DNA of 64,000 nucleotides from Streptomyces hygroscopicus (GTDB lineage Bacteria > Actinomycetota > Actinomycetes > Streptomycetales > Streptomycetaceae): assembly GCF_026168105.1 (NCBI RefSeq), contig NZ_LBMW01000010.1, forward strand, positions 1-64,000, written 5' to 3'. Positions 37,465 to 48,768 of the stretch are shown here, one piece after another. Below the pieces are notes generated by a model. The model was given only the letters and a program-made list of their open reading frames with translations, was not told the origin of the DNA and did no database searches. The position numbers and the translations under genes were made by a program. The first letter of the stretch is position 1. Every line of letters begins with the position of its first letter.

Positions 37465-38631
37465 TCAGGAGGTCGGCGGCCGGTCTCCGACCAGCCACAT
37501 CGAGAAGAACTGGGACCCGCCGCCGTAGGCGTGCCCGAGTACCCGCCGGGCCCCGTCCACCTGGTGCTCTCCGGCCTGCCCGCGCACCTGGAGCGCCGCC
37601 TCGGCGAAGCGGATCATGCCGGAGGCGCCGATGGGATTGGTGGACAGGACGCCGCCGGACATGTTGACGGGAAGGTCCCCGTCGAGTTCGGTCACCCCGG
37701 ACTCGGTGAGCTTCCAGCCCTCGCCCTGCTCGGCGAATCCGAGGTTCTCCAGCCACATGGGCTCGTACCAGGAGAAGGGCACGTACATCTCCACCGCGTC
37801 GATGTCCCGGCGCGGGTCGGCGACCCCCGCCTGCCGGTAGACGTCGGCGGCGCAGTCCTTGCCTGCCTGCGGCGACACGAAGTCCTTGCCGGCGAAGAGC
37901 GTCGGCTCGCTGCGCATCGCGCCGCCGAGCATCCAGGCGGGCGGGCGGGGCGAGCGTGCCGCGCCCGCACGATCGGTGAGCACCATGGCGCACGCGCCGT
38001 CCGAGGAGGGGCAGGTCTCCGAGTAGCGGATCGGGTCCCACAGCATGGGTGAGGACTGCACCTTCTCCAGCGTGATGTCGTGTTCGTGCAGGTGTGCGTA
38101 CGGGTTCTTGAGGGCGTTGCGCCGGTCCTTGTACGCGACCAGCGAGCCGACCGTGTCCGGTGCGCCGCTGCGTCGCATGTAGGCGCGTATGTGCGGGGCG
38201 AAGAAGCCGCCCGCGCCGGCGAGCAGCGGCTGCTGGAAGGGGATCGGCAGCGACAGGCCCCACATGGCGTTGGACTCGGACTGCTTCTCGTAGGCGAGGG
38301 TCAGGACGGTGCGGTGGACGCGGGCGGCGACCAGGTTGGCCGCGACGAGTGCCGTGGAGCCACCGACCGAACCGGCCGTGTGCACCCTGAGCATGGGTTT
38401 GCCGACGGCGCCCAGCGCGTCGGCGAGGTACAGCTCCGGCATCATGACGCCCTCGAAGAAGTCGGGCGCCTTGCCGATGACCACGGCGTCGATGTCGGCC
38501 CAGGTCAGCGCGGCGTCCTCAAGGGCCCGCCGGGCCGCCTCCCGAACGAGCCCCGCGATGGACACGTCCCGCCGCGCCGCCACGTGCTTGGTCTGGCCGA
38601 TCCCGGTGACGGCCACGGACTCCTTGCTCAT
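37465..38631 (-). CDS. Thiolase-fold lipid-transfer-type protein (putative aldolase), paralogue 1
   Basis: A 388-residue thiolase-fold protein, the last gene of a four-gene operon; its ATG overlaps the stop of the preceding gene (ATGA). It starts V-A-V-T-G-I-G-Q-T-K like SCP-x/Ltp thiolases. At the nucleophile position it reads V-H-T-A-G-S-V-G-G-S-T, so the usual Cys is absent. The C-terminal G-H-P motif is replaced by V-L-S-T-N-P-I-G-A-S-G. True thiolysis is therefore unlikely. The pattern fits Ltp-type retro-aldolases that work with a DUF35 partner, present two genes upstream. Confidence 0.85.
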   Translation of the reverse strand: MSKESVAVTGIGQTKHVAARRDVSIAGLVREAARRALEDAALTWADIDAVVIGKAPDFFEGVMMPELYLADALGAVGKPMLRVHTAGSVGGSTALVAANLVAARVHRTVLTLAYEKQSESNAMWGLSLPIPFQQPLLAGAGGFFAPHIRAYMRRSGAPDTVGSLVAYKDRRNALKNPYAHLHEHDITLEKVQSSPMLWDPIRYSETCPSSDGACAMVLTDRAGAARSPRPPAWMLGGAMRSEPTLFAGKDFVSPQAGKDCAADVYRQAGVADPRRDIDAVEMYVPFSWYEPMWLENLGFAEQGEGWKLTESGVTELDGDLPVNMSGGVLSTNPIGASGMIRFAEAALQVRGQAGEHQVDGARRVLGHAYGGGSQFFSMWLVGDRPPTS

Positions 38632-39698
38632 CGCGGGTCTCCCTCGAGTACGGCGACCAGGTTCTGCTGCAGACAGGGGCCGGAGGTGGCGTGGGCGAGC
38701 GCGCGGTCGGACTCCCCACGGTGGATACGGGCGGCTGCCTCGCCGATGCGGATCAGCCCGGCCGCCATCATCGGGTTGGCGGCGAGGGCGCCCCCCGAGG
38801 GGTTGACCGTGACGCTGTCGCCGAGCCTGAGCGCCTTGCGCAGGATCATCTCCTGCGCGGTGAACGGCGCGTGCAACTCCGCGGTGTCCACAGGCCGTTG
38901 GAAGGCACCGGCCCGCTCGGCGGCGAGCCGCGCGGACGGCGAGTCCGTCAGATCGCGCACCCCGAGCCCGTGTGCCTCGATGCGATGGTCGATGCCCCGG
39001 ATCCAGGCGGGCCGCGCGCACAGCTGTCGGGCTCGCTCGCCCGCCGCAAGGATCACGGCGGCGGCCCCGTCGCCGACCGGCGGGCAGTCGCCGGTGCGCA
39101 GCGGCCGCACGACGTATTCCCCCTGTGGTACGCAACCCGTCAGCTGAGCGTGGGAGTTGGCGGCCGCGTCCGCCCGGTTGCGGGCGGCGACCTGGGCCAG
39201 TGCGGGCTCGTCGGTCTCGCCCCGGTCGATGAGCGCCTGTGCCTGAAGTGCGGCGAGCGCCACCGAGTCCGGCCACAGCGGAGCCACGTAGTAGGGGTCC
39301 AGCTGCCGGGTCAGCACGTCCCGTACGCTTCCGGGCGACGACTTGCCGTACGAGTAGACCAGCGCGGTGTCGGCGTCGCCCGTGAGCAGCTTGGTCCACG
39401 CCTCGTACAGCGCCCAAGCGCCGTCCATCTCGACATGCGACTCGGAGATCGGCGGCCAGGCGCCCACCCCGTCGAGAGCGAGAGTGAAGGAGAAGGCACG
39501 GCCCGCGAGATAGTCGCTGGAGCCGGAGCAGGTGAAGCCGATGTCGCTGGTATTCAGCCCGGTACGGTCGAGGACCTGGTGCAGGACCGGCATCAGCATC
39601 TCGACTTCGGAGAGTTCGTCGCTGGTGCGCCGGTGGTCGGTCTGCGCGAAGGCGACGACGGCGATCTCCCGGTGCCCTGGGGCTTCTTCGCGCGTCAC
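38628..39698 (-). CDS. Thiolase-fold lipid-transfer-type protein (putative aldolase), paralogue 2
   Basis: A 356-residue paralogue of the next gene, starting at GTG 39698 in a GTGA overlap with the DUF35 gene. It has E-I-A-V-V-A-F-A-Q-T-D near the N-terminus and V-N-P-S-G-G-A-L-A-A-N-P-M-M-A-A-G near the C-terminus, again lacking G-H-P. The nucleophile segment (S-E-S-H-V-E-M-D-G-A-W-A-L) has no Cys. In steroid side-chain catabolism Ltp2-like proteins of this sort pair with ChsH2-like DUF35 proteins to split a beta-hydroxyacyl-CoA. A heterodimer with paralogue 1 is possible. Confidence 0.83.
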   Translation of the reverse strand: MTREEAPGHREIAVVAFAQTDHRRTSDELSEVEMLMPVLHQVLDRTGLNTSDIGFTCSGSSDYLAGRAFSFTLALDGVGAWPPISESHVEMDGAWALYEAWTKLLTGDADTALVYSYGKSSPGSVRDVLTRQLDPYYVAPLWPDSVALAALQAQALIDRGETDEPALAQVAARNRADAAANSHAQLTGCVPQGEYVVRPLRTGDCPPVGDGAAAVILAAGERARQLCARPAWIRGIDHRIEAHGLGVRDLTDSPSARLAAERAGAFQRPVDTAELHAPFTAQEMILRKALRLGDSVTVNPSGGALAANPMMAAGLIRIGEAAARIHRGESDRALAHATSGPCLQQNLVAVLEGDPR

Positions 39699-40636
39699 AG
39701 CAGCTCCTTGTACGACTCGTAGTCCGCGTCCGGCTCTCCCGTGGGCCGGTAGTGATCGGGATGGCGCGCCCCGGGGGTCCACACCGGTTCGACCCGCAGC
39801 CCCATGCGCACCTGGTCGTAGGGGATGCCGCCGATACGGCCGTGCAGTGCGAGGTCGGCACCGTCGAGGGCGATGTGCGCGTAGACATAGGGGACTTCGA
39901 TGTCCAGGTTCTTCGCCTTGATGTTGACGATGCAGAACGTCGTCACGGTCCCGCGCGGGCCCACCTCGACCTGCTCCGCAGTGGCCACGCCGCAGGTGGG
40001 GCAGGCACCCCGCGGCGGGACGTAGACCTTGCGGCAGGACGGGCAGCGCTCGCCGACGGTCCGCCGTTCGGACAGGGCGCCGAGGTAGGCGGACTGGGCG
40101 CGACCGGGCGAGTAGGTGTAGTCGAGACGGGCCGGGGCGACGATGCCGGTCACCGTGTCCTCGAACTCGCCACTGTGGGCCCCGGACTCGGCGGGATCGC
40201 CGTCGTACGGCTCGAAGCAGGCAATGTCCGTGATGGCGCCGGAGCGTTCGGCCGCCCAACGGATACGGACGCGCATACCGGTGCGAAGGACGTCGGGGCC
40301 CGGGGCGTCGAGTGCGTGCAGGAGGGAGGTGTCGGCGCCGTCGAGCCGGACCAGGGCCCACCCGAAGGGGGTGTCGAGGGGCTGGCCGCGGCGTGGCGCG
40401 TGGTTCCAGGCCCAGGTGGTGACGGTGCCGGTGGGGGCGACCTCGACGAGGTCGCGCAGTTCCTCGGCCGTGACCGGGTCGTACTCGACGGGCGGGACGA
40501 GGGTGCGGCCGTCGCCGGTCCTCACCCCGAGGACGACACGTTCGCGCAGGCCGGTGAGGAAGGCGCTCTGCACGGGTCCCAGGGAGCGGGTGAAGGGGAA
40601 CTCGACGACGAGGGGGGCTTTGAGGACTTCGGGCAT
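39695..40636 (-). CDS. Tandem DUF35 OB-fold protein (ChsH2-like)
   Basis: A 313-residue protein with two DUF35 units. The first (about 1-145) has the OB-fold V-A-P-T-G-T-V-T-T-W-A-W-N-H but no zinc cysteines. The second has the rubredoxin-like zinc finger C-P-S-C-(x10)-C-P-T-C and the OB part V-G-P-R-G-T-V-T-T-F-C-I-V-N-I. Such proteins bind acyl-CoA chains and form stable complexes with Ltp-type thiolases, which follow here with 4-bp overlaps on both sides. It probably serves as the acyl-CoA-binding subunit for one or both of them. Confidence 0.9.
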   Translation of the reverse strand: MPEVLKAPLVVEFPFTRSLGPVQSAFLTGLRERVVLGVRTGDGRTLVPPVEYDPVTAEELRDLVEVAPTGTVTTWAWNHAPRRGQPLDTPFGWALVRLDGADTSLLHALDAPGPDVLRTGMRVRIRWAAERSGAITDIACFEPYDGDPAESGAHSGEFEDTVTGIVAPARLDYTYSPGRAQSAYLGALSERRTVGERCPSCRKVYVPPRGACPTCGVATAEQVEVGPRGTVTTFCIVNIKAKNLDIEVPYVYAHIALDGADLALHGRIGGIPYDQVRMGLRVEPVWTPGARHPDHYRPTGEPDADYESYKELL

Positions 40637-40666
40637 CGCGGATCTCTCCTTGTGTCTCCCGGCGGC

Positions 40667-41467
40667 TCAAGCGCGCCGGTAGACGGGCGGGCGTTTCTCG
40701 GCGAAGGCGCGGGTGCCTTCCTTGGCGTCGGCGGTGGCGAAGACCGGCCAACCGCGCTCGAGTTCGGCGGCCAGTCCGTCTGTCTCCGTCATCTCGGCGG
40801 TCTCGTACACGGATGCCTTGACGGCCTCGACGGCGAGCGGCCCGCAGGCATTGACCTGTTCGGCGATCTCCAGGGCGCGGGCGAGCGCGGTGCCGTCGGG
40901 GACCACATGGCCGACGAGTCCGATGCCGACGGCTTCGCGTGCCGTGTACGGGCGTCCGGTGAGCAGCATCTCCAGGGCGTGGGTGCGCGGGATCTGCCGC
41001 TGGAGGCGGACCGTCGAGCCGCCGATGGGGAACAGTCCGCGCCTGACCTCGAACAGGCCGAAGGTGGCGGAGTCGCCCGCCACCCGGATGTCGGTCCCCT
41101 GCAGGATCTCGGTGCCGCCCGCCACGCAGGGTCCCTCGACGGCGGCGATCACCGGTTTGCGGGGGCGGTGGTGGCGCAGCATCGCCTTCCAGTGCAGATC
41201 CGGGTCGGCGGTCAGCCGGTCGCGGTACTGCTGCCCGTCCATCCCCCGGCCGGCCAGGGCCTTGAGGTCCATCCCGGCGCAGAAGGAGCCGCCCGCGCCG
41301 GTGAGCACGATCGAGCGGACCGCGTCGTCCTCGTCGGCCTCGATCCAGCCGTCGTACAGCCCCACCAGCATCGGCAGCGAGAGCGCGTTCCTGGCCTCGG
41401 GCCTGTTGAGCGTGAGCACGAGTGTGGCGCCTTCGCGCTGCACGGTGAGGTGTTCCGTCCCACCCAT
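40667..41467 (-). CDS. Enoyl-CoA hydratase/isomerase (crotonase family)
   Basis: A 266-residue crotonase starting at ATG 41467 with GGAGG 5 bp upstream. It has N-R-P-E-A-R-N-A-L-S, the oxyanion loop S-F-C-A-G-M-D-L-K-A-L, E-G-P-C-V-A-G-G-T-E-I-L and R-R-G-L-F-P-I-G-G. Glu is present in G-G-T-E; the second catalytic Glu position reads L-F-P-I-G-G, so only one acidic residue is clear. It would hydrate or isomerise an enoyl-CoA ahead of the aldolase-like step. It is first in the operon, facing a palindromic operator and the divergent ligase gene. Confidence 0.9.
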   Translation of the reverse strand: MGGTEHLTVQREGATLVLTLNRPEARNALSLPMLVGLYDGWIEADEDDAVRSIVLTGAGGSFCAGMDLKALAGRGMDGQQYRDRLTADPDLHWKAMLRHHRPRKPVIAAVEGPCVAGGTEILQGTDIRVAGDSATFGLFEVRRGLFPIGGSTVRLQRQIPRTHALEMLLTGRPYTAREAVGIGLVGHVVPDGTALARALEIAEQVNACGPLAVEAVKASVYETAEMTETDGLAAELERGWPVFATADAKEGTRAFAEKRPPVYRRA

Positions 41468-41530
41468 CGCTTCCTCCCGTCTCCGGAACGAGAACAGGTT
41501 GCAGGAGGCGCGGAGACAGGACAAGGGTTT

Positions 41531-41547
41531 TCTGACAGACAGTCAGA
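41531..41547. promoter_or_regulatory. Perfect palindromic operator between divergent acyl-CoA genes
   Basis: TCTGAC-AGACA-GTCAGA (41531-41547) is a perfect inverted repeat with 6-bp arms and a 5-bp spacer. It lies between the crotonase operon and the divergent acyl-CoA ligase. Its size and form fit a TetR-family operator. No TetR gene is in this part of the window. Confidence 0.65.
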
Positions 41548-41653
41548 TTTCTTCTGCGGGGCCCTTCACAGTTGCGTCCCCCTTTGCTCTGATGACCGGC
41601 GGACCGATGCATGCCCCTTTCTTCGCCGAGCGTCGCCTGGGTCAGGAGGAGCG

Positions 41654-43273
41654 GTGGAGTACAACCTTGCCGACCTGTTCGAGTCGGTCGTCGACGTGGT
41701 TCCGGGCCGCGAGGCGCTCGTGTACGTCGACCACCCGGGCACGGGCGCGGAGCGTCGTCTCACCTACGCGGAGCTGGACGCGGCGGCCAACCGCATCGGA
41801 CACCATCTGCTCGAGGCCGGCATACGGCCGGGGGAGCACCTGGGCCTGCATCTGTACAACGGGGTCGAGTACCTGCAGACGGTACTGGGGTGCCTCAAGG
41901 CCCGCATCGTGCCGGTCAACGTCAACTACCGGTATGTCGAGGAGGAGTTGGTCTACCTCTACCGGGACGCGGACCTCGCGGCGCTGGTCTTCGACGCGGA
42001 GTTCACCGACCGGGTGGCGGCGGCGCTGCCCCGGGCGCCGAAGCTGCGGCACATGGTGCGCGTGGGGACCCCCGCGCCGGGTGCCGCCGCGCTGCCCGCC
42101 GTGGACTTCACCGACGCCGAGGCCGCCGCCTCTTTCGGGCGCGGCTTCCCGGCGCGCTCGGCGGACGACCAGTTCATCATCTACACCGGCGGCACGACCG
42201 GTATGCCGAAGGGCGTGATGTGGCGCCAGGAGGACCTGTTCTTCGCCGGACTCGGCGGCGGCGCCCCGACGGGCGAGCCGGTCACGAAGCCGGAGGAACT
42301 GGCCGAGCGGGTCGCGGCCGGCGGTGAGGGCATCACCTTCTTCCCGGCTCCCCCGCTGATGCACGGAACCTCGACGCTCACGGCGTTCATCGGCTTCAAC
42401 TTCGGCCAGCGGATCGTGATCCACCGCAAGTTCGTGGCGGAGGAGGTCCTGCGGACCGTCGAAAAGGAGAAGGTAACCAGCGTGTCGCTGGTGGGCGACG
42501 CGATGCTCCGGCCGCTGGTCGACGCGCTGAACGGACCCATGAAGGGCACGGACTGCTCGTCCCTGTTCAGCGTGTCGTCGTCCGGGGCGATCATGTCGGA
42601 GACCGTACGCACGCAGTTCCAGGCGCTCGTCCCGAACGCCATGCTGCTGAACAACTTCGGCTCGTCGGAGTCGGGTTTCAACGGCACCGCGACCCCCGAC
42701 TCGGGACCGGGCAGGGGTTTCCGCATCCGCGTCAACTCCCGTACACAGGTGGTGGATCCGGTCACCCACGCGCCGGTCGCGGCGGGCGAGCCGGGGCGCA
42801 TCGCACAGCGCGGGCACGTGCCGCTCGGCTACTACAACGACCCGGGCAAAACGGCCGAGACCTTCTTCGAGACGGACGGCGACCGGTGGGTACTGCTCGG
42901 CGACATGGCAACGGCCGACGAGGAGGGCGTGATCACGGTTCTCGGCCGCGGCTCGCAGTGCATCAACACCGGCGGCGAGAAGGTGTACCCGGAGGAGGTC
43001 GAGCAGGCGCTCAAGTCGCATCCGGACGTGTACGACGCCCTGGTCGCCGGGGTGCCGGACGCCACGTGGGGCAACCATGTGGCGGCGGTGGTGCAGTTGC
43101 GCGAGGGCGCGCCCCACCCGTCCCTGGAGGACATCCAGAACCACTGCCGGCCCCATCTGGCGGGCTACAAGGTGCCACGCCAACTGGTCATCACGGACAC
43201 CATCCAACGCTCGCCCAGCGGCAAGGCGGACTACCGCTGGGCGAAGGAGGTGGCGGTGGCGGCGGACCGCTGA
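41654..43273 (+). CDS. Acyl-CoA synthetase (FadD-like)
   Basis: A 539-residue AMP-forming ligase. GTG 41654 follows AGGAGGA by 3-4 bases. Motifs: I-I-Y-T-G-G-T-T-G-M-P-K-G-V (ATP loop, with Y-T-G-G-T-T rather than Y-T-S-G-T-T), N-N-F-G-S-S-E-S-G (A5 region), G-D-M-A-T-A-D-E-E-G-V-I (A7) and S-G-K-A-D-Y-R (catalytic Lys near the end). It activates a carboxylic acid to its CoA ester, presumably the entry substrate for the divergent crotonase/DUF35/thiolase-fold operon. Related ligases serve steroid or long-chain acid catabolism. The acid itself is not predictable. Confidence 0.92.
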   Translation: MEYNLADLFESVVDVVPGREALVYVDHPGTGAERRLTYAELDAAANRIGHHLLEAGIRPGEHLGLHLYNGVEYLQTVLGCLKARIVPVNVNYRYVEEELVYLYRDADLAALVFDAEFTDRVAAALPRAPKLRHMVRVGTPAPGAAALPAVDFTDAEAAASFGRGFPARSADDQFIIYTGGTTGMPKGVMWRQEDLFFAGLGGGAPTGEPVTKPEELAERVAAGGEGITFFPAPPLMHGTSTLTAFIGFNFGQRIVIHRKFVAEEVLRTVEKEKVTSVSLVGDAMLRPLVDALNGPMKGTDCSSLFSVSSSGAIMSETVRTQFQALVPNAMLLNNFGSSESGFNGTATPDSGPGRGFRIRVNSRTQVVDPVTHAPVAAGEPGRIAQRGHVPLGYYNDPGKTAETFFETDGDRWVLLGDMATADEEGVITVLGRGSQCINTGGEKVYPEEVEQALKSHPDVYDALVAGVPDATWGNHVAAVVQLREGAPHPSLEDIQNHCRPHLAGYKVPRQLVITDTIQRSPSGKADYRWAKEVAVAADR

Positions 43274-44479: not shown

Positions 44480-46009
44480 TCAGAGGAAGCTGACGCCCTG
44501 GGCGAGGGTGAGTTCGCTGGAGTAGTTGATGGTGTTGGTGGCGGAGCGCATGTACGCCTTCCAGGCGTCGGAGCCGGACTCGCGGCCGCCGCCGGTGTCC
44601 TTCTCGCCTCCGAAGGCGCCGCCGATCTCGGCGCCGGAGGTGCCGATGTTGACGTTTGCGATACCGCAGTCGGAGCCGGCGGCGGACAGGAAGATCTCGG
44701 CCTCCTGCTGGTCGCGGGTGAAGATGCTGGACGACAGGCCCTGCGGGACGTCGTTGTGCAGCGCGATCGCCTCGTCGAGGGTGTCGTAGGTGAGCACGTA
44801 CAGGATCGGCGCGAAGGTCTCCTCCCTTACGACGTCGCTCTGTTCGCCGACGCGGACGAGGACGGGCTCCGCGTAGGCGGCCGCGGGCGCGTCCTCGGTC
44901 AGGCGGCGGTTGCCGCCGGCCAGGATCTCGCCGCCCTGCGCCTGGACGCGGGCCAGAGCCTGCTGCATGCGTGTGAAGGCCTCGGTGGAGATGAGGGGAC
45001 CGACCAGCGTGGTGTCCTCGAACGGGCTGCCGATCGGGAGCTTGCGGTAAGCGGCGGTCAGCCGCTCGACGAGGGTGTCGGCGATGTCGCGGTGGACGAT
45101 GAGGCGGCGCAACGTCGTGCAGCGCTGACCCGCCGTACCGGCCGCGGCGAAGACGATGCCCTGGACGGCGAGGTCCAGGTCGGCGGAGGGAGCGACGACC
45201 GCGGCGTTGTTGCCGCCGAGTTCCAGCAGGCTGCGGCCGAAGCGGGCGGCGACGCGGGGGGCGACCTCGCGGCCCATGCGGGTGGAGCCGGTGGCGCTGA
45301 CGAGGGCCACGCGGGGGTCGTCGACGAGCTTCTCACCCACCGCCCGGTCGCCGAGCAGGAGACGGTGCACATCCCGAGGAGCCCCGACCTCCTCGGCGGC
45401 CCGGGCGAGCAGGTGGTCACAGGCCAGGGAGATCAGCGGGGTGAGCTCCGAGGGCTTCCAGACCACGGTGTCGCCGCAGACCAGCGCGACGGCGGTGTTC
45501 CACGACCACACGGCCGCAGGGAAGTTGAAGGCGGAGATGACGCCGACCACCCCGAGCGGGTGCCAGGTCTCGGCCAGGCGGTGGCCGGGGCGTTCGGAGG
45601 CGATCGTACGGCCGTACAGCTGACGGGACAGACCGACCGCGAAGTCGCAGATGTCGATCATCTCCTGGATCTCACCGAGCGCCTCGGAGCGGATCTTGCC
45701 CGCCTCGATGGTGACGAGGTCGGCCAGGTCGCTCTTGTGCTCGCGCAGCAACTCCCCCAGTCGCCGCACGAGTTCACCCCGGCGCGGCGCGGGCGTGGTG
45801 CGCCAGGTCAGGAAGGCGGCACGGGCGGCCGCGATGGCCTCTTCGACATCGGTGTCGGTGGCGGCCGTCAGCCCGAAGAGGGGCTCGCCGGTGAGGGGGG
45901 TACGGGCATGGAAGTCGTCGCCCTCCGCCACCTCCACACCGACGTTCCTGAGGCCGGCCAGGGCGCGGGCGCGCAGATCGTCCGTGGTGGGCAGTGCGGT
46001 GCTGGTCAT
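44480..46009 (-). CDS. amaB: L-piperidine-6-carboxylate (aminoadipate semialdehyde) dehydrogenase, AmaB/antiquitin type
   Basis: A 509-residue ALDH7-type enzyme. It has F-N-F-P-A-A-V-W-S-W-N (antiquitin anchor), W-K-P-S-E-L-T-P, S-A-T-G-S-T-R-M-G, L-E-L-G-G-N-N-A-A (the L-G-G-N-N form is diagnostic) and G-Q-R-C-T-T-L-R-R (catalytic Cys). G-G-A-F-G-G-E-K-D-T-G-G-G-R-E-S-G-S-D-A-W-K and the C-terminal Q-G-V-S-F complete the match. It oxidises the ring-open form of piperidine-6-carboxylate to 2-aminoadipate with NAD. Third gene of the amaA-hglS-amaB operon, 24 bp after hglS, with AAGGA before its ATG. Confidence 0.94.
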   Translation of the reverse strand: MTSTALPTTDDLRARALAGLRNVGVEVAEGDDFHARTPLTGEPLFGLTAATDTDVEEAIAAARAAFLTWRTTPAPRRGELVRRLGELLREHKSDLADLVTIEAGKIRSEALGEIQEMIDICDFAVGLSRQLYGRTIASERPGHRLAETWHPLGVVGVISAFNFPAAVWSWNTAVALVCGDTVVWKPSELTPLISLACDHLLARAAEEVGAPRDVHRLLLGDRAVGEKLVDDPRVALVSATGSTRMGREVAPRVAARFGRSLLELGGNNAAVVAPSADLDLAVQGIVFAAAGTAGQRCTTLRRLIVHRDIADTLVERLTAAYRKLPIGSPFEDTTLVGPLISTEAFTRMQQALARVQAQGGEILAGGNRRLTEDAPAAAYAEPVLVRVGEQSDVVREETFAPILYVLTYDTLDEAIALHNDVPQGLSSSIFTRDQQEAEIFLSAAGSDCGIANVNIGTSGAEIGGAFGGEKDTGGGRESGSDAWKAYMRSATNTINYSSELTLAQGVSFL

Positions 46010-46033
46010 CGTGGTCCTTGTGGGTGTGAGGGG

Positions 46034-47431
46034 TCAGCCGAGGGCGCCGGTGAGGTCCAACTCGTGGGCGACGTGTGCGAGGGAGCGGTTCTGCTGCCGC
46101 TCGTAGAGGGCGAAGGGGTCGAGGACCTCGCGTCCGAGGGCACCGGAGAGCCAGACGGCGTCGTAGGCGGTGCCCTGCTGGTCGTTGTCGCGGGTGCCCT
46201 CGCCGCTGAGGTTGGACTGGAAGATGCCGGCGGCGGAGCGGGGCAGGAAGTCCTCGTAGACGATCGGCTCGGCGTGTACCCAGCCGTGCTCCACCAGTTC
46301 GCCGATGCTGGTGGGCGGCTTGCTGCCGTCGCGGGGGCGTTCGTCGGCGAGCCGGTAGGTGAAATAGGCCAGCCCCTCGGCGGCGAGTTCCTGCTCGCTG
46401 CCGGGCATGTGCCGCTCCCACACGGCGCGCGCGATGTCGCCTCGAGCCGCGGTGGAATTCCGCGAGGCCTGCTCGTCGATGTGGCTGAGGAGTTCGTCGT
46501 AGAGGGCGCGGCCCTCACGGGTGAGGGCGATGCCGCGGGCCTCGACCTCACCGAAGCGCACGCGCAGGGCGCCGCTTTCGACGCTGCCGTCCGCGAGGCG
46601 CATCGCGCGCGGCTCGGCCAGGGCGCGGAAGGAGGTCTGCCGCAGCAGGAGGTCGGGGCCCTTCCAGGCCGGCGGGCCCTGGATGGTGTCGATCATCTCG
46701 ATGCCACGGTCCGTCATACGGCGGTACAGCTCGTCGATGTCCAGGACGCGTGGCGTGAGGTGGTTGATGTGCGTGCTGCGGACGCCGCCGATGTCGGCGG
46801 CGACGGCGGAGATCCGCTCCAGGGTCTCGTACCACGCCTTGTCGACCGGCTCGCTGGACAGCTCGAAGGCCGCGACTGCGAGTTGCAGGAAACGCTCGGC
46901 CTCGTCCTCCGGCAGTTCCCTGTCGGCTTCGGCCCGGTCGGCCAGCGCCAGCAGCTCCGGGGGAAAGAGTTCACGGCCGGCGAGGAAGGCTTCCAGGCGC
47001 GAGCGCAGGTCGGCGTCGAAGAAACGGGGGTCGGCGGGGGTGAGCATGGAGGTGAACACCCGGAAGGGGTTGCGGGCCAGTTCCTCGCCGTCGATGGGCC
47101 GGAAGGCGGTGGAGACGACGGGGACGGCGCTGGCCGCGGCCTCCCGCAGGTCGTAGAAGCCGACCGGGTGCATGCCGAGGGCGGCGAAGACGCGGGCGAC
47201 CTCGTGCAGTTCCCGCGGTGTGCCGACGCGGATCGCCCCGTGCCGCTCGGCGGTCACGCGGCCGATGGAGCCGAGGCGTTCGGCGTCGGCTCCCTGCGCG
47301 CGCAGGACGTCCTCATTGACCTCGCGCGACACGTCCACCAGCGTCGTGTAGGCGGGAACCTCCTGGCCGTACATCTCCGACAGCCGCACCGCGAACGCGG
47401 CCCGCAGCTGCCACTGGCTGATCGTTGACAT
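46034..47431 (-). CDS. hglS: 2-oxoadipate dioxygenase/decarboxylase (HglS, DUF1338)
   Basis: A 465-residue protein of the DUF1338/YdcJ family. Metal ligands fit HglS: His64 (A-E-R-H-G-A-I-R-V-G-T), a His at 221-224 (S-T-H-I-N-H-L-T-P-R) and a Glu at 295-297 (R-F-G-E-V-E-A-R-G), against His70, His226 and Glu294 known for the Pseudomonas enzyme. It converts 2-oxoadipate with O2 to D-2-hydroxyglutarate and CO2. It lies between the FAD oxidase and AmaB genes, with 22- and 24-bp gaps, so all three are probably one transcript. GAGAGG precedes the ATG. Confidence 0.93.
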   Translation of the reverse strand: MSTISQWQLRAAFAVRLSEMYGQEVPAYTTLVDVSREVNEDVLRAQGADAERLGSIGRVTAERHGAIRVGTPRELHEVARVFAALGMHPVGFYDLREAAASAVPVVSTAFRPIDGEELARNPFRVFTSMLTPADPRFFDADLRSRLEAFLAGRELFPPELLALADRAEADRELPEDEAERFLQLAVAAFELSSEPVDKAWYETLERISAVAADIGGVRSTHINHLTPRVLDIDELYRRMTDRGIEMIDTIQGPPAWKGPDLLLRQTSFRALAEPRAMRLADGSVESGALRVRFGEVEARGIALTREGRALYDELLSHIDEQASRNSTAARGDIARAVWERHMPGSEQELAAEGLAYFTYRLADERPRDGSKPPTSIGELVEHGWVHAEPIVYEDFLPRSAAGIFQSNLSGEGTRDNDQQGTAYDAVWLSGALGREVLDPFALYERQQNRSLAHVAHELDLTGALG

Positions 47432-47453
47432 GGTTCGGCCTCTCGGTCGGGGT

Positions 47454-48626
47454 TCACACCACGTGAGCCTCGGGGCGGGTCTCGGCGCCGTGGCGGAATC
47501 GGTCGGCGCTGAGCGGGGTGATGTCGGTGAACGGCTCGCGCTCCAGGTACAGGTCGCGCAGGACCTCGCCGACCGCCGGCGCCTGCAGGAAGCCGTGACC
47601 GGAGAACCCGGTGGCGTACAGGAAGCCCGGCAGCTCGCCGGAGCGGCCGATGAGCGCGTTGTGGTCCGGCGTGACCTCGTACAGGCCCGCCCAGCCGCCG
47701 ACGGTCTTCATGTCGGCCAGGGCCGGGGCGCGGTGGCGGGCGACGGTGCGGAACAGTTCCAGCCATTCCGGGGTCCAGGTGGTGTCGAACCCGTCCTTCT
47801 GGTCCGGGTCGGCCAGCCCGAACAGCAGACCGTCGTCGCTGTTGTGGAAGTAGGCGGCCGACGAGAAGTCGATGGTGAACGGGATGCGCGGGGCGGGCGG
47901 CGTGAGCGGCGCGGTGAATGCCAACTGCCGTCTGACGGGCCGGACCGGGAGGTCGATGCCGACCATTTCTCCGATCTGTGCCGACCAGACCCCGGCGGTG
48001 CAGATGACGGTGGAGCACGCAATGCGGCCCTGGTTGGTGCGCACGCCGGTGATGCGGTCCCCGGCCGTGTCGATGCCGGAGACCGCGGTGTGGGTGGCGA
48101 TCGTGACGCCGGCCCGGGCCGCGGCCTGTACGTATCCCTGGATGACCAGTCCGGGGCGGGCGTGCCCGTCGGCCGGGGAGTACACGGCGGCCACGAGGCC
48201 GTCGGTGCTGACATAGGGGCACAGGCGCTGGGCGTCGTCGGGGCTGATCATGCGGCTCGGCACGTTCAGGCTGTTCTGGAGCCTGACGCCGGCCTCGAAG
48301 TCGCTCGCCTGCTGTTCGCTGTTGAGCAGGAACAGGTAGCCCACGGTGTCGAGCTTGATGTCGGCTCCGGGCCGGTGGGGGAACTCCTGGTAGGCACGCA
48401 GGCTGCGGTGGCCCAGCTCGATGTTGAGCGGGTCGGAGAACTGGGCGCGCACGCCGCCGATCGGCTTGCCCGAGCTGCCGCAGCCGAGCTCGCCGCGCTC
48501 GACGACGACGATGTTCTTCACCCCGGCCTCGGCGAGATGGAACGCGGTGCTCGCACCCATCACACCGCCGCCGATGATCACAACATCGGCGGAGGCCGGA
48601 ACGGTGCGGAAGGCGGAGGAGGACAA
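47454..48626 (-). CDS. FAD-dependent amino-acid oxidase (candidate L-pipecolate oxidase, AmaA-like)
   Basis: A 390-residue DAO/sarcosine-oxidase-fold protein. TTG 48626 is the likely start, with GGGAG 8 bp upstream; frames further up are unlike protein. The FAD fingerprint is A-D-V-V-I-I-G-G-G-V-M-G-A-S-T-A, then V-V-V-E-R-G-E-L-G-C-G-S-S-G-K. C-terminal G-G-W-A-G-L-Y-E-V-T-P-D-H-N-A-L-I-G and G-F-S-G-H-G-F are typical. By sequence alone it could act on sarcosine, proline or pipecolate. Its place before HglS and AmaB makes pipecolate the best guess. A LysR gene is divergent across a palindrome. Confidence 0.82.
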   Translation of the reverse strand: MSSSAFRTVPASADVVIIGGGVMGASTAFHLAEAGVKNIVVVERGELGCGSSGKPIGGVRAQFSDPLNIELGHRSLRAYQEFPHRPGADIKLDTVGYLFLLNSEQQASDFEAGVRLQNSLNVPSRMISPDDAQRLCPYVSTDGLVAAVYSPADGHARPGLVIQGYVQAAARAGVTIATHTAVSGIDTAGDRITGVRTNQGRIACSTVICTAGVWSAQIGEMVGIDLPVRPVRRQLAFTAPLTPPAPRIPFTIDFSSAAYFHNSDDGLLFGLADPDQKDGFDTTWTPEWLELFRTVARHRAPALADMKTVGGWAGLYEVTPDHNALIGRSGELPGFLYATGFSGHGFLQAPAVGEVLRDLYLEREPFTDITPLSADRFRHGAETRPEAHVV

Positions 48627-48748
48627 CGGGCCACTCCCTTCCGGGGGCCACCCAGTCGGACGAAGAGGGTCCGTTTCCGGGGGCGGCGGGGCTGTCAGTG
48701 CAGAGCGATGCCGATCAGCTATCTGTGCGTCATCGTGCAGCAACCCCA

Positions 48749-48768
48749 CCGTTGACGTCTATCAACGG
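48749..48768. promoter_or_regulatory. LysR-type palindrome between amaA-like and lysR genes
   Basis: CCGTTGA-CGTCTA-TCAACGG (48749-48768) has perfect 7-bp arms and a 6-bp spacer. It is centred about 40 bp before the LysR ATG in the 172-bp divergent region. It is the natural binding site for the LysR protein encoded next to it. Confidence 0.75.

Follow-up and report, generated by a model that had tools for sequence, protein, structure and literature searches.

A stretch of 64,000 nucleotides of the Streptomyces hygroscopicus genome (NCBI RefSeq assembly GCF_026168105.1, contig NZ_LBMW01000010.1, positions 1 to 64,000 of the forward strand), referred to as the window, carries a minus-strand gene set (37465-41467) for a crotonase, a tandem DUF35 protein and two thiolase-fold proteins, A and B, in this order, and a divergent plus-strand gene for a CoA ligase (Table 1). 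This set probably constitutes the arm of actinobacterial sterol catabolism for C24-branched side chains, in which B would cut the side chain, A would be its partner and the DUF35 protein would clamp the two. Gene families, conservation, active-site losses, gene order, operators and the co-occurrence with sterol side-chain genes are computed directly.

Gene families, gene order and distribution

By family models, gene order and motifs, the gene set appears to be orthologous to the FadD19/EchA19/Rv3521-type/Ltp4/Ltp3 block, which in a published gene listing comprises fadD19 (Rv3515c), echA19 (Rv3516), Rv3521 (a conserved hypothetical), ltp4 (Rv3522) and ltp3 (Rv3523) (PMC6429209). Ltp3 and Ltp4 are reported to be essential for the degradation of C24-branched, and not of straight, sterol side chains in Rhodococcus (Wilbrink 2012, as cited in PMC6273163), and in the literature excerpts at hand the evidence on these two proteins is genetic. 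The cut-offs of the four families PRK08313, PRK07937, PRK07798 and PRK07799 are passed in the window and likewise in the mycobacterial-type locus L126, in which the crotonase also passes the EchA19 cut-off (446.9 bits, cut-off 400) and the ligase matches PRK07798 at 857.7 bits (cut-off 543); the window ligase is 44.7% identical to the ligase adjoining echA19 in this locus. The genes for the DUF35 protein and A, as well as those for A and B, overlap by 4 bases, in agreement with the coupling of the thiolase-fold genes to the DUF35 gene proposed in a preliminary description made from the window's letters. A longer form of the crotonase, starting at a TTG at 41524, is possible.

PRK07937 was found above its cut-off in 81 of 200 genomes from the window's own family and in 20 of 198 genomes from the phylum, and a genome with such a protein is called module-positive. 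In a scan of named loci, the best 80 of 589 confirmed loci comprise 78 labelled Streptomyces, one Microtetraspora glauca and one 'Actinobacteria bacterium'; the order ligase on one strand followed by crotonase, DUF35, A and B on the other is present in 76 of these 80, and the contigs of the other four end before the crotonase. The closest named relatives of A among the matches listed are from Streptomyces (92%). In each of the 12 non-Streptomyces loci fetched (L126-L137), A and B adjoin each other, and the DUF35-A-B arrangement is shared by Streptomyces, mycobacterial-type genomes and further families of the phylum. The mixed complex of two paralogues with a double DUF35 protein envisaged in the preliminary description would still be the best-supported reading of these genes; however, given its recurrence across the phylum, the gene arrangement as such is not unusual.

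Active sites of A and B

A and B were aligned with a genome-encoded SCP2-type thiolase, which contains NCAT, HDCF and GHP, and with the Ltp2 orthologue of the host genome, which contains YDHF. Consistent with the preliminary description, the nucleophilic Cys and the His of the G-H-P motif are absent from both proteins: in the alignment to the SCP2-type thiolase, the Cys column holds Gly in B (HTAGSVG) and Glu in A (SHVEMDG), the HDCF column reads YVPF in B and HAPF in A, and the GHP column reads TNP in B and ANP in A. Conservation was assessed in 107 loci (94 Streptomyces-type loci and 13 others, in which species may repeat) with exclusion of the distant locus L136, which reads TEYY and HEAF. 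YVPF and HTAGSVG are both found in 107/107 B orthologues and SHV(E/D) in 107/107 A orthologues. HAPF is present in 99/107 A orthologues, the remaining eight reading HAPY, HAAF, YAPF (three), CAPF, LAPF and HAQF. The His of G-H-P is Asn in 107/107 B and 105/107 A proteins. Because the same replacements are kept across the 107 orthologues, the residue losses are not the result of sequencing errors.

A and B could be ordinary thiolases with displaced catalytic residues, as might be suggested by their matches to Pfam thiolase families, which A matches only under the gathering cut-off, and by PDB sequence matches. However, the nucleophilic Cys is replaced in every A and every B of the set and the G-H-P His in every B and in 105/107 A proteins, making this explanation very improbable. 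The His is kept only in two A proteins (L099 and L134), in which the Gly is missing.

Two known thiolase-fold aldolases, Ltp2 and Sal, use the residue that opens the YD(H/C) motif as catalytic base and have a Gly positioned close to the hydroxyl group of the substrate (PMC12329534); the host's Ltp2 orthologue likewise has Gly at the column of the thiolase nucleophile. B appears to share these two features, Tyr and Gly, with the known aldolases, and A appears mostly to have neither. The second catalytic residue (Tyr344 in Ltp2, Cys304 in Sal) is without counterpart in B in the alignment, with Asn and Pro near the gapped Tyr344 column and Pro at Cys304, and we can only guess that Tyr369 in HAYG is an alternative acid. 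In total, B is most likely a retro-aldolase with Tyr283 of YVPF as base, and A is most likely a partner largely devoid of catalytic residues with a non-catalytic or specificity role. Since B keeps the Tyr in 107/107 proteins and A does not, a mixed complex of the two is probably asymmetric. An AlphaFold2 model of A, for which 27 sequences were used, 26 of them from Streptomyces-type relatives, has a mean pLDDT of 32.5.

Two DUF35 units accompany A and B

The two units of the DUF35 protein (unit 1, approximately residues 1-143; unit 2, approximately residues 158-313) are 35% identical over 114 aa (E 4e-17). As the preliminary description had it, zinc-ribbon cysteines (C198, C201, C212 and C215) are present in unit 2 only, and they are invariant across 29 aligned sequences; the Pfam matches of the protein are likewise best in unit 2. 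A fold search with a model of the tandem protein (mean pLDDT 64.1) gave 6ok1_B as best match (E 9.4e-8), which lends weak support.

The units are not always fused. In L128, L129, L130, L132 and L135, they are separate neighbouring reading frames; zinc-ribbon cysteines are missing from the first frame, and three or four of them are present in the second. The mycobacterial-type loci L126, L127 and L137 (family f3) as well as L133 encode a fused protein with zinc-ribbon cysteines in neither unit, L134 encodes a fused protein with cysteines in unit 2, and in L131 the DUF35 stretch is interrupted by the contig end. Two DUF35 units accompany A and B in every fetched locus in which that stretch is complete. 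In the excluded locus L136 (phylum genome G254), two thiolase-fold genes are followed by two DUF35 units with four cysteines each, which share a reading frame but are separated by a stop codon; L136 possibly represents an ancestral form of the lopsided pair. In trees of A and B from 15 taxa, the fused Streptomyces proteins cluster with the split L129 (FastTree 0.996; IQ-TREE 90) and the fused L133 clusters with the split L132 (0.96; 87). Because fused and split lineages are intermixed on the trees, DUF35 fusion or splitting occurred more than once; a count by hand suggests at least three events, with inner nodes of the trees that are weak and differ. We read the two DUF35 units as probably serving two unlike aldolase-fold subunits.

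The pairing of two DUF35 units with two paralogues in every complete fetched locus, as separate genes in some lineages, could also mean that both A and B are active enzymes that differ in the step or chain type they handle (e.g. 24-methyl versus 24-ethyl), with one DUF35 unit each. Moreover, A has strongly conserved motifs of its own, HATSGP-LQQN and ESHV(E/D), and reads YAPF in 3 of the 13 non-Streptomyces proteins. By contrast, the base position of A varies between H, Y, C and L where B has Tyr in 107/107, and in the relatives examined, whether fused or split, unit 1 has no zinc-ribbon cysteines, except for L136. Altogether, we regard two catalytic subunits as unlikely; however, because A is not uniformly stripped (YAPF in 3/13, His in 2/107), it may be active in some lineages.

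An excerpt of a 2022 paper describes the Rv3521 homologue still as a hypothetical protein that might bind DNA (PMC9782250). Among the matches listed in a literature search that mostly left subscription papers outside, there is no report of Rv3521 as a tandem DUF35 protein or of the operon in Streptomyces. The tandem-DUF35 assignment of Rv3521-type proteins and the conserved asymmetry of A and B would be new, as would be the large uncoupling, described below, of side-chain genes from ring markers in the sampled Streptomyces-type genomes.

Sterol genes of the host and of related genomes

The host assembly is an 8.65 Mb draft of 159 contigs, in which genes were called with a home-made gene caller. 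It contains a ChsH2-like gene followed by a ChsH1-like gene and the gene for the Ltp2 orthologue, which matches 6OK1 with 575.6 bits and has an intact YDHF, and 17 bp before the ChsH2-like gene lies a palindrome that is also present in the ligase-crotonase promoter (see below). Moreover, a CYP125-like gene is divergent from a steroid 3-ketoacyl-CoA thiolase (FadA5) equivalog (688.6 bits, cut-off 515), and the host's KstD is a 3-oxosteroid 1-dehydrogenase equivalog (923.1 bits, cut-off 788). Within the genus, ChsH2-like proteins, some of them in two pieces, are present in 12/12 module-positive and 0/12 module-negative genomes, CYP125 at 56-58% identity in 11/11 and 0/6 (one of the six has a 40% match), and KstD at 54-58% identity in 8/11 and 0/6. 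The idea that the module lies outside any sterol context, which came from the missing KshA, one of two ring-degradation markers (KshA and HsaC), was dropped once the Ltp2, CYP125, FadA5 and KstD orthologues were found.

In the host genome, searched with one family model for each enzyme in the 159-contig draft, KshA (PF19298/KshA_C) had no match and the best score for HsaC (TIGR03213) was 24.7 bits on a 159-aa frame. Of the 20 module-positive genomes of the genus, four exceed the low Pfam cut-off for KshA_C (306, 93, 77 and 64 bits, of which only the first is strong), as do three of the 20 module-negative genomes (85 bits, 67 bits and one score approximately at the cut-off). The KshA_C match is strong in all five f3 genomes; among the eight module-positive genomes that belong neither to the genus nor to f3, two have a match and six have none. 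The HsaC-type cut-off is passed by none of the 20 module-positive genomes of the genus, in which the best scores are 326, 261, 228, 204 and 187 bits, the first of them in the KshA-positive genome G064; given these scores, some relatives may have a ring enzyme.

Because neither KshA nor HsaC was found in the host, degradation would likely end at a 17-keto steroid and not proceed to full mineralisation, and the presence of KstD points to a product of the androstadienedione type. In this strain, the side chain would thus likely be removed and the ring system left.

The same findings could be explained by the same chemistry on a different substrate, i.e. the beta-branched chain of a non-steroid isoprenoid acid, for which sterol-type genes had been recruited. 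Strong KshA is missing from 19/20 and a HsaC-type protein above the cut-off from 20/20 of the module-positive genomes of the genus, six of the eight module-positive genomes outside the genus and f3 have no KshA_C, and an excerpt of Bergstrand 2016 reports the steroid pathway as missing in 55 of 57 Streptomyces genomes (PMC4810484). However, CYP125 and ChsH2 co-occur with the module and the host encodes a true Ltp2, proteins whose characterised relatives act on steroids; CYP125A13 of S. peucetius, a Streptomyces enzyme, hydroxylates cholesterol (PMC9728343); and KstD and FadA5 equivalogs are present together with a KstR-type box. In total, we consider a non-steroid substrate distinctly unlikely.

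Promoter elements and candidate regulators

The ligase-crotonase intergenic region holds a KstR-type box and a palindromic operator (Table 1). Of 77 orthologous intergenic regions, 76 contain the box with no more than one mismatch (2.7% in base-shuffled regions), and in 27 the match is exact; in 75/77 regions the core AACnnGTT begins 31 bp past the palindrome. Kendall 2007 defined the KstR motif and located it at Rv3515c/Rv3516 and at Rv3520c/Rv3521 (PMC1995591), and a KstR-type box also lies between ligase and crotonase in L126 and L137. The host encodes a KstR-like TetR protein (C90:27221-27892), whose five PDB sequence matches are three KstR as well as 3mnl and 3bjb, which are labelled only as TetR-family proteins. 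An exact KstR box lies upstream of its gene, and the promoters of KstR-like genes contain an exact KstR motif in 12/12 loci.

The palindrome is found as CTGAC-n(3-8)-GTCAG in 77/77 intergenic regions; the ten commonest forms (75/77) all have n5, and TCTGACn5GTCAGA is exact in 69/77. The exact palindrome occurs 4-9 times in 10/10 module-positive genomes and is absent from 4/4 module-negative ones, and a reversed control occurs 0 times, or once in two genomes. Apart from the module's own site, 51/53 palindromes in nine relatives lie at most 450 bp upstream of a called gene, compared with 37% of random positions in the same stretches. The host genome has nine sites, of which three are inside called genes, and 5/8 palindromes other than the module's own lie within this distance. 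Within two mismatches, the palindrome was not found in the L126 or L137 promoters. Other genes behind palindromes encode acyl-CoA-dehydrogenase-like proteins, named from sequence; since they have no specific NCBIfam name at the E-value applied, with one weak match to a pimeloyl-CoA dehydrogenase model, we do not call them ChsE.

Two candidate regulators of the palindrome were rejected. The KstR-like TetR is also encoded by 9/12 module-negative genomes, and its own promoter is without the palindrome (at most two mismatches) in 11/12 loci. The TetR protein of a second cluster, on the host contig C140 (L139:5049-5684), is encoded by 24/24 genomes of the genus, 12 with and 12 without the module. 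Clusters of this type (L138, L139 and L169-L171) encode F420-type luciferase-like proteins, an SDR, a FadD3-family ligase (796 bits, cut-off 657), two thiolase-fold/DUF35 sets and the TetR protein, and contain the palindrome in 9/10 module-positive genomes examined. On the host contig C108 (L167:4998-6251), the palindrome lies between genes for PNPOx-family and isochorismatase-family proteins, an arrangement that recurs in 4/10 genomes.

Features and neighbouring genes

Table 1. Genes and promoter elements of the putative side-chain module in the window
Feature	Position	Strand	Description
B, Ltp3-like thiolase-fold protein	37465..38631	-	388 aa, ATG start; NCBIfam PRK08313, 712.6 bits (cut-off 514)
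A, Ltp4-like thiolase-fold protein	38628..39698	-	356 aa, GTG start; NCBIfam PRK07937, 574.5 bits (cut-off 419)
Tandem DUF35 protein, Rv3521 type	39695..40636	-	313 aa; Pfam OB_ChsH2_C twice, zf-ChsH2 in unit 2
EchA19-like crotonase	40667..41467	-	266 aa; NCBIfam PRK07799, 423.3 bits (cut-off 316)
KstR-type box	41490..41503	.	one mismatch to TnnAACnnGTTnnA
Palindromic operator TCTGACAGACAGTCAGA	41531..41547	.	conserved in the ligase-crotonase intergenic region
FadD19-like acyl-CoA ligase	41654..43273	+	539 aa, GTG start, divergent; NCBIfam PRK07798, 745.8 bits (cut-off 543)

Elsewhere in the window (44480-48749), genes for an L-piperidine-6-carboxylate dehydrogenase (817.8 bits, cut-off 730), a mycobacterial-type HglS (758.8 bits, cut-off 600) and a DAO-family oxidase lie in a row. 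They are genes of lysine/2-oxoadipate catabolism and are probably unrelated to the putative aldolase operon.

Discussion

We infer the substrate, the reaction steps, the division of labour, the stoichiometry and the complex from the data above. The FadD19-like ligase would form the C26-oyl-CoA of a plant-sterol side chain pre-oxidised by CYP125, which is encoded elsewhere in the genome; an acyl-CoA dehydrogenase from outside the window would then generate the enoyl-CoA, and the EchA19-like crotonase would hydrate it to a tertiary alcohol at C24. Because a tertiary alcohol at an alkyl-branched C24 cannot become a ketone for thiolysis, a retro-aldol cut would follow, in which Tyr283 of B would act as base on the beta-hydroxyl group, giving a ketone and propionyl-CoA. 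A would be the thiolase-fold dimer partner of B, mostly without catalytic residues, and the two DUF35 units would clamp the unlike subunits. The preliminary description had suggested crotonase hydration followed by aldol cleavage of an unknown acyl-CoA. The sequence of reactions is still the best-supported one; however, given the FadD19/EchA19/Ltp4/Ltp3 orthology, the sterol genes and the KstR-type box, the acyl-CoA need not be regarded as unknown.

Several observations weigh against assigning the gene set to sterol side chains with B as the cutting subunit. The crotonase scores 378.1 bits against the EchA19 equivalog NF051848, just below the cut-off of 400, and M. smegmatis, according to an excerpt of PMC6273163, does not require echA19 to degrade sitosterol or cholesterol. 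No pathway dehydrogenase or hydroxylase is encoded within the window. Among the 12 non-Streptomyces loci, only L126 and L137 have the ligase-crotonase pair in the vicinity of DUF35-A-B, at a distance of approximately 4 kb from DUF35 in both, and in L128 and L133 a crotonase is found there without the ligase. Three of 11 module-positive genomes are without a close KstD, and the KstR-like protein is not confined to module-positive genomes. Finally, the YVPF of B is neither the YDHF of Ltp2 nor the YDCY of Sal, and A retains YAPF or the G-H-P His in the few proteins mentioned above.

Taken further, these data tentatively suggest a lopsided retro-aldolase in which a catalytic Ltp3-type subunit is combined with a degenerate Ltp4-type subunit and with a DUF35 pair that has one zinc-less unit and has repeatedly been fused or split. 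In approximately two fifths of the sampled genomes of the family (81/200, with PRK07937 as marker), this enzyme might serve to remove sterol side chains while mostly leaving the steroid core intact, under the control of a KstR-type box and a putative second regulator site. The window would then suggest a concrete answer to how two unlike thiolase-fold proteins would carry out one aldol cleavage, i.e. one active subunit, a partner and a two-headed DUF35 clamp, and would give the 'hypothetical' proteins of the Rv3521 type a role. It also predicts that many Streptomyces strip the side chains of plant sterols and leave the rings, the same outcome for which industry engineers mycolicibacteria to obtain androstenedione-type intermediates (PMC10398937).

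Comparison with known systems

The benzoylsuccinyl-CoA thiolase BbsAB (7PXP) has the same pairing of thiolase-fold and DUF35 proteins and was matched by sequence and fold search; however, the window proteins score far below the BbsB and BbsA family cut-offs (104.9 bits, cut-off 750, and 20 bits, cut-off 250). The bile-acid aldolase Sal-Shy(DUF35) (9MYR) combines retro-aldol chemistry with a thiolase fold and a DUF35 protein (PMC12329534), the chemistry being deduced for the window; Sal has YDCY with a catalytic Cys, whereas B has Pro at that place.

The Ltp2-ChsH2(DUF35) retro-aldolase (6OK1) shares with the window the thiolase fold, the adjoining DUF35 gene and, in the case of B, Gly in place of the nucleophilic Cys and a Tyr at the base position. 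In this enzyme, a homodimer is flanked by two copies of one DUF35 protein (PMC12329534); by contrast, the window has, as judged from its genes, two unlike paralogues and a two-unit DUF35 protein. Moreover, Ltp2-ChsH2 has the motif YDHF and a MaoC-type hydratase, whereas the window has YVPF and a crotonase.

A further comparison is with the mycobacterial/rhodococcal FadD19-EchA19-Rv3521-Ltp4-Ltp3 block. In the mycobacterial-type loci L126 and L137, approximately 4 kb separate crotonase and DUF35, whereas the Streptomyces crotonase directly precedes DUF35-A-B. The zinc cysteines of DUF35 unit 2 are present in the window and missing from L126, L127 and L137, and the second palindrome is present in the window promoter and missing (at most two mismatches) from those of L126 and L137. 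Also in contrast to the setting of this block, KshA and HsaC were not found in the host genome. The two also share several features: the families are the same, the ligase is divergent from the crotonase in L126 and L137 as in the window, DUF35, Ltp4 and Ltp3 follow in the same order, and the divergent promoter carries a KstR-type box.

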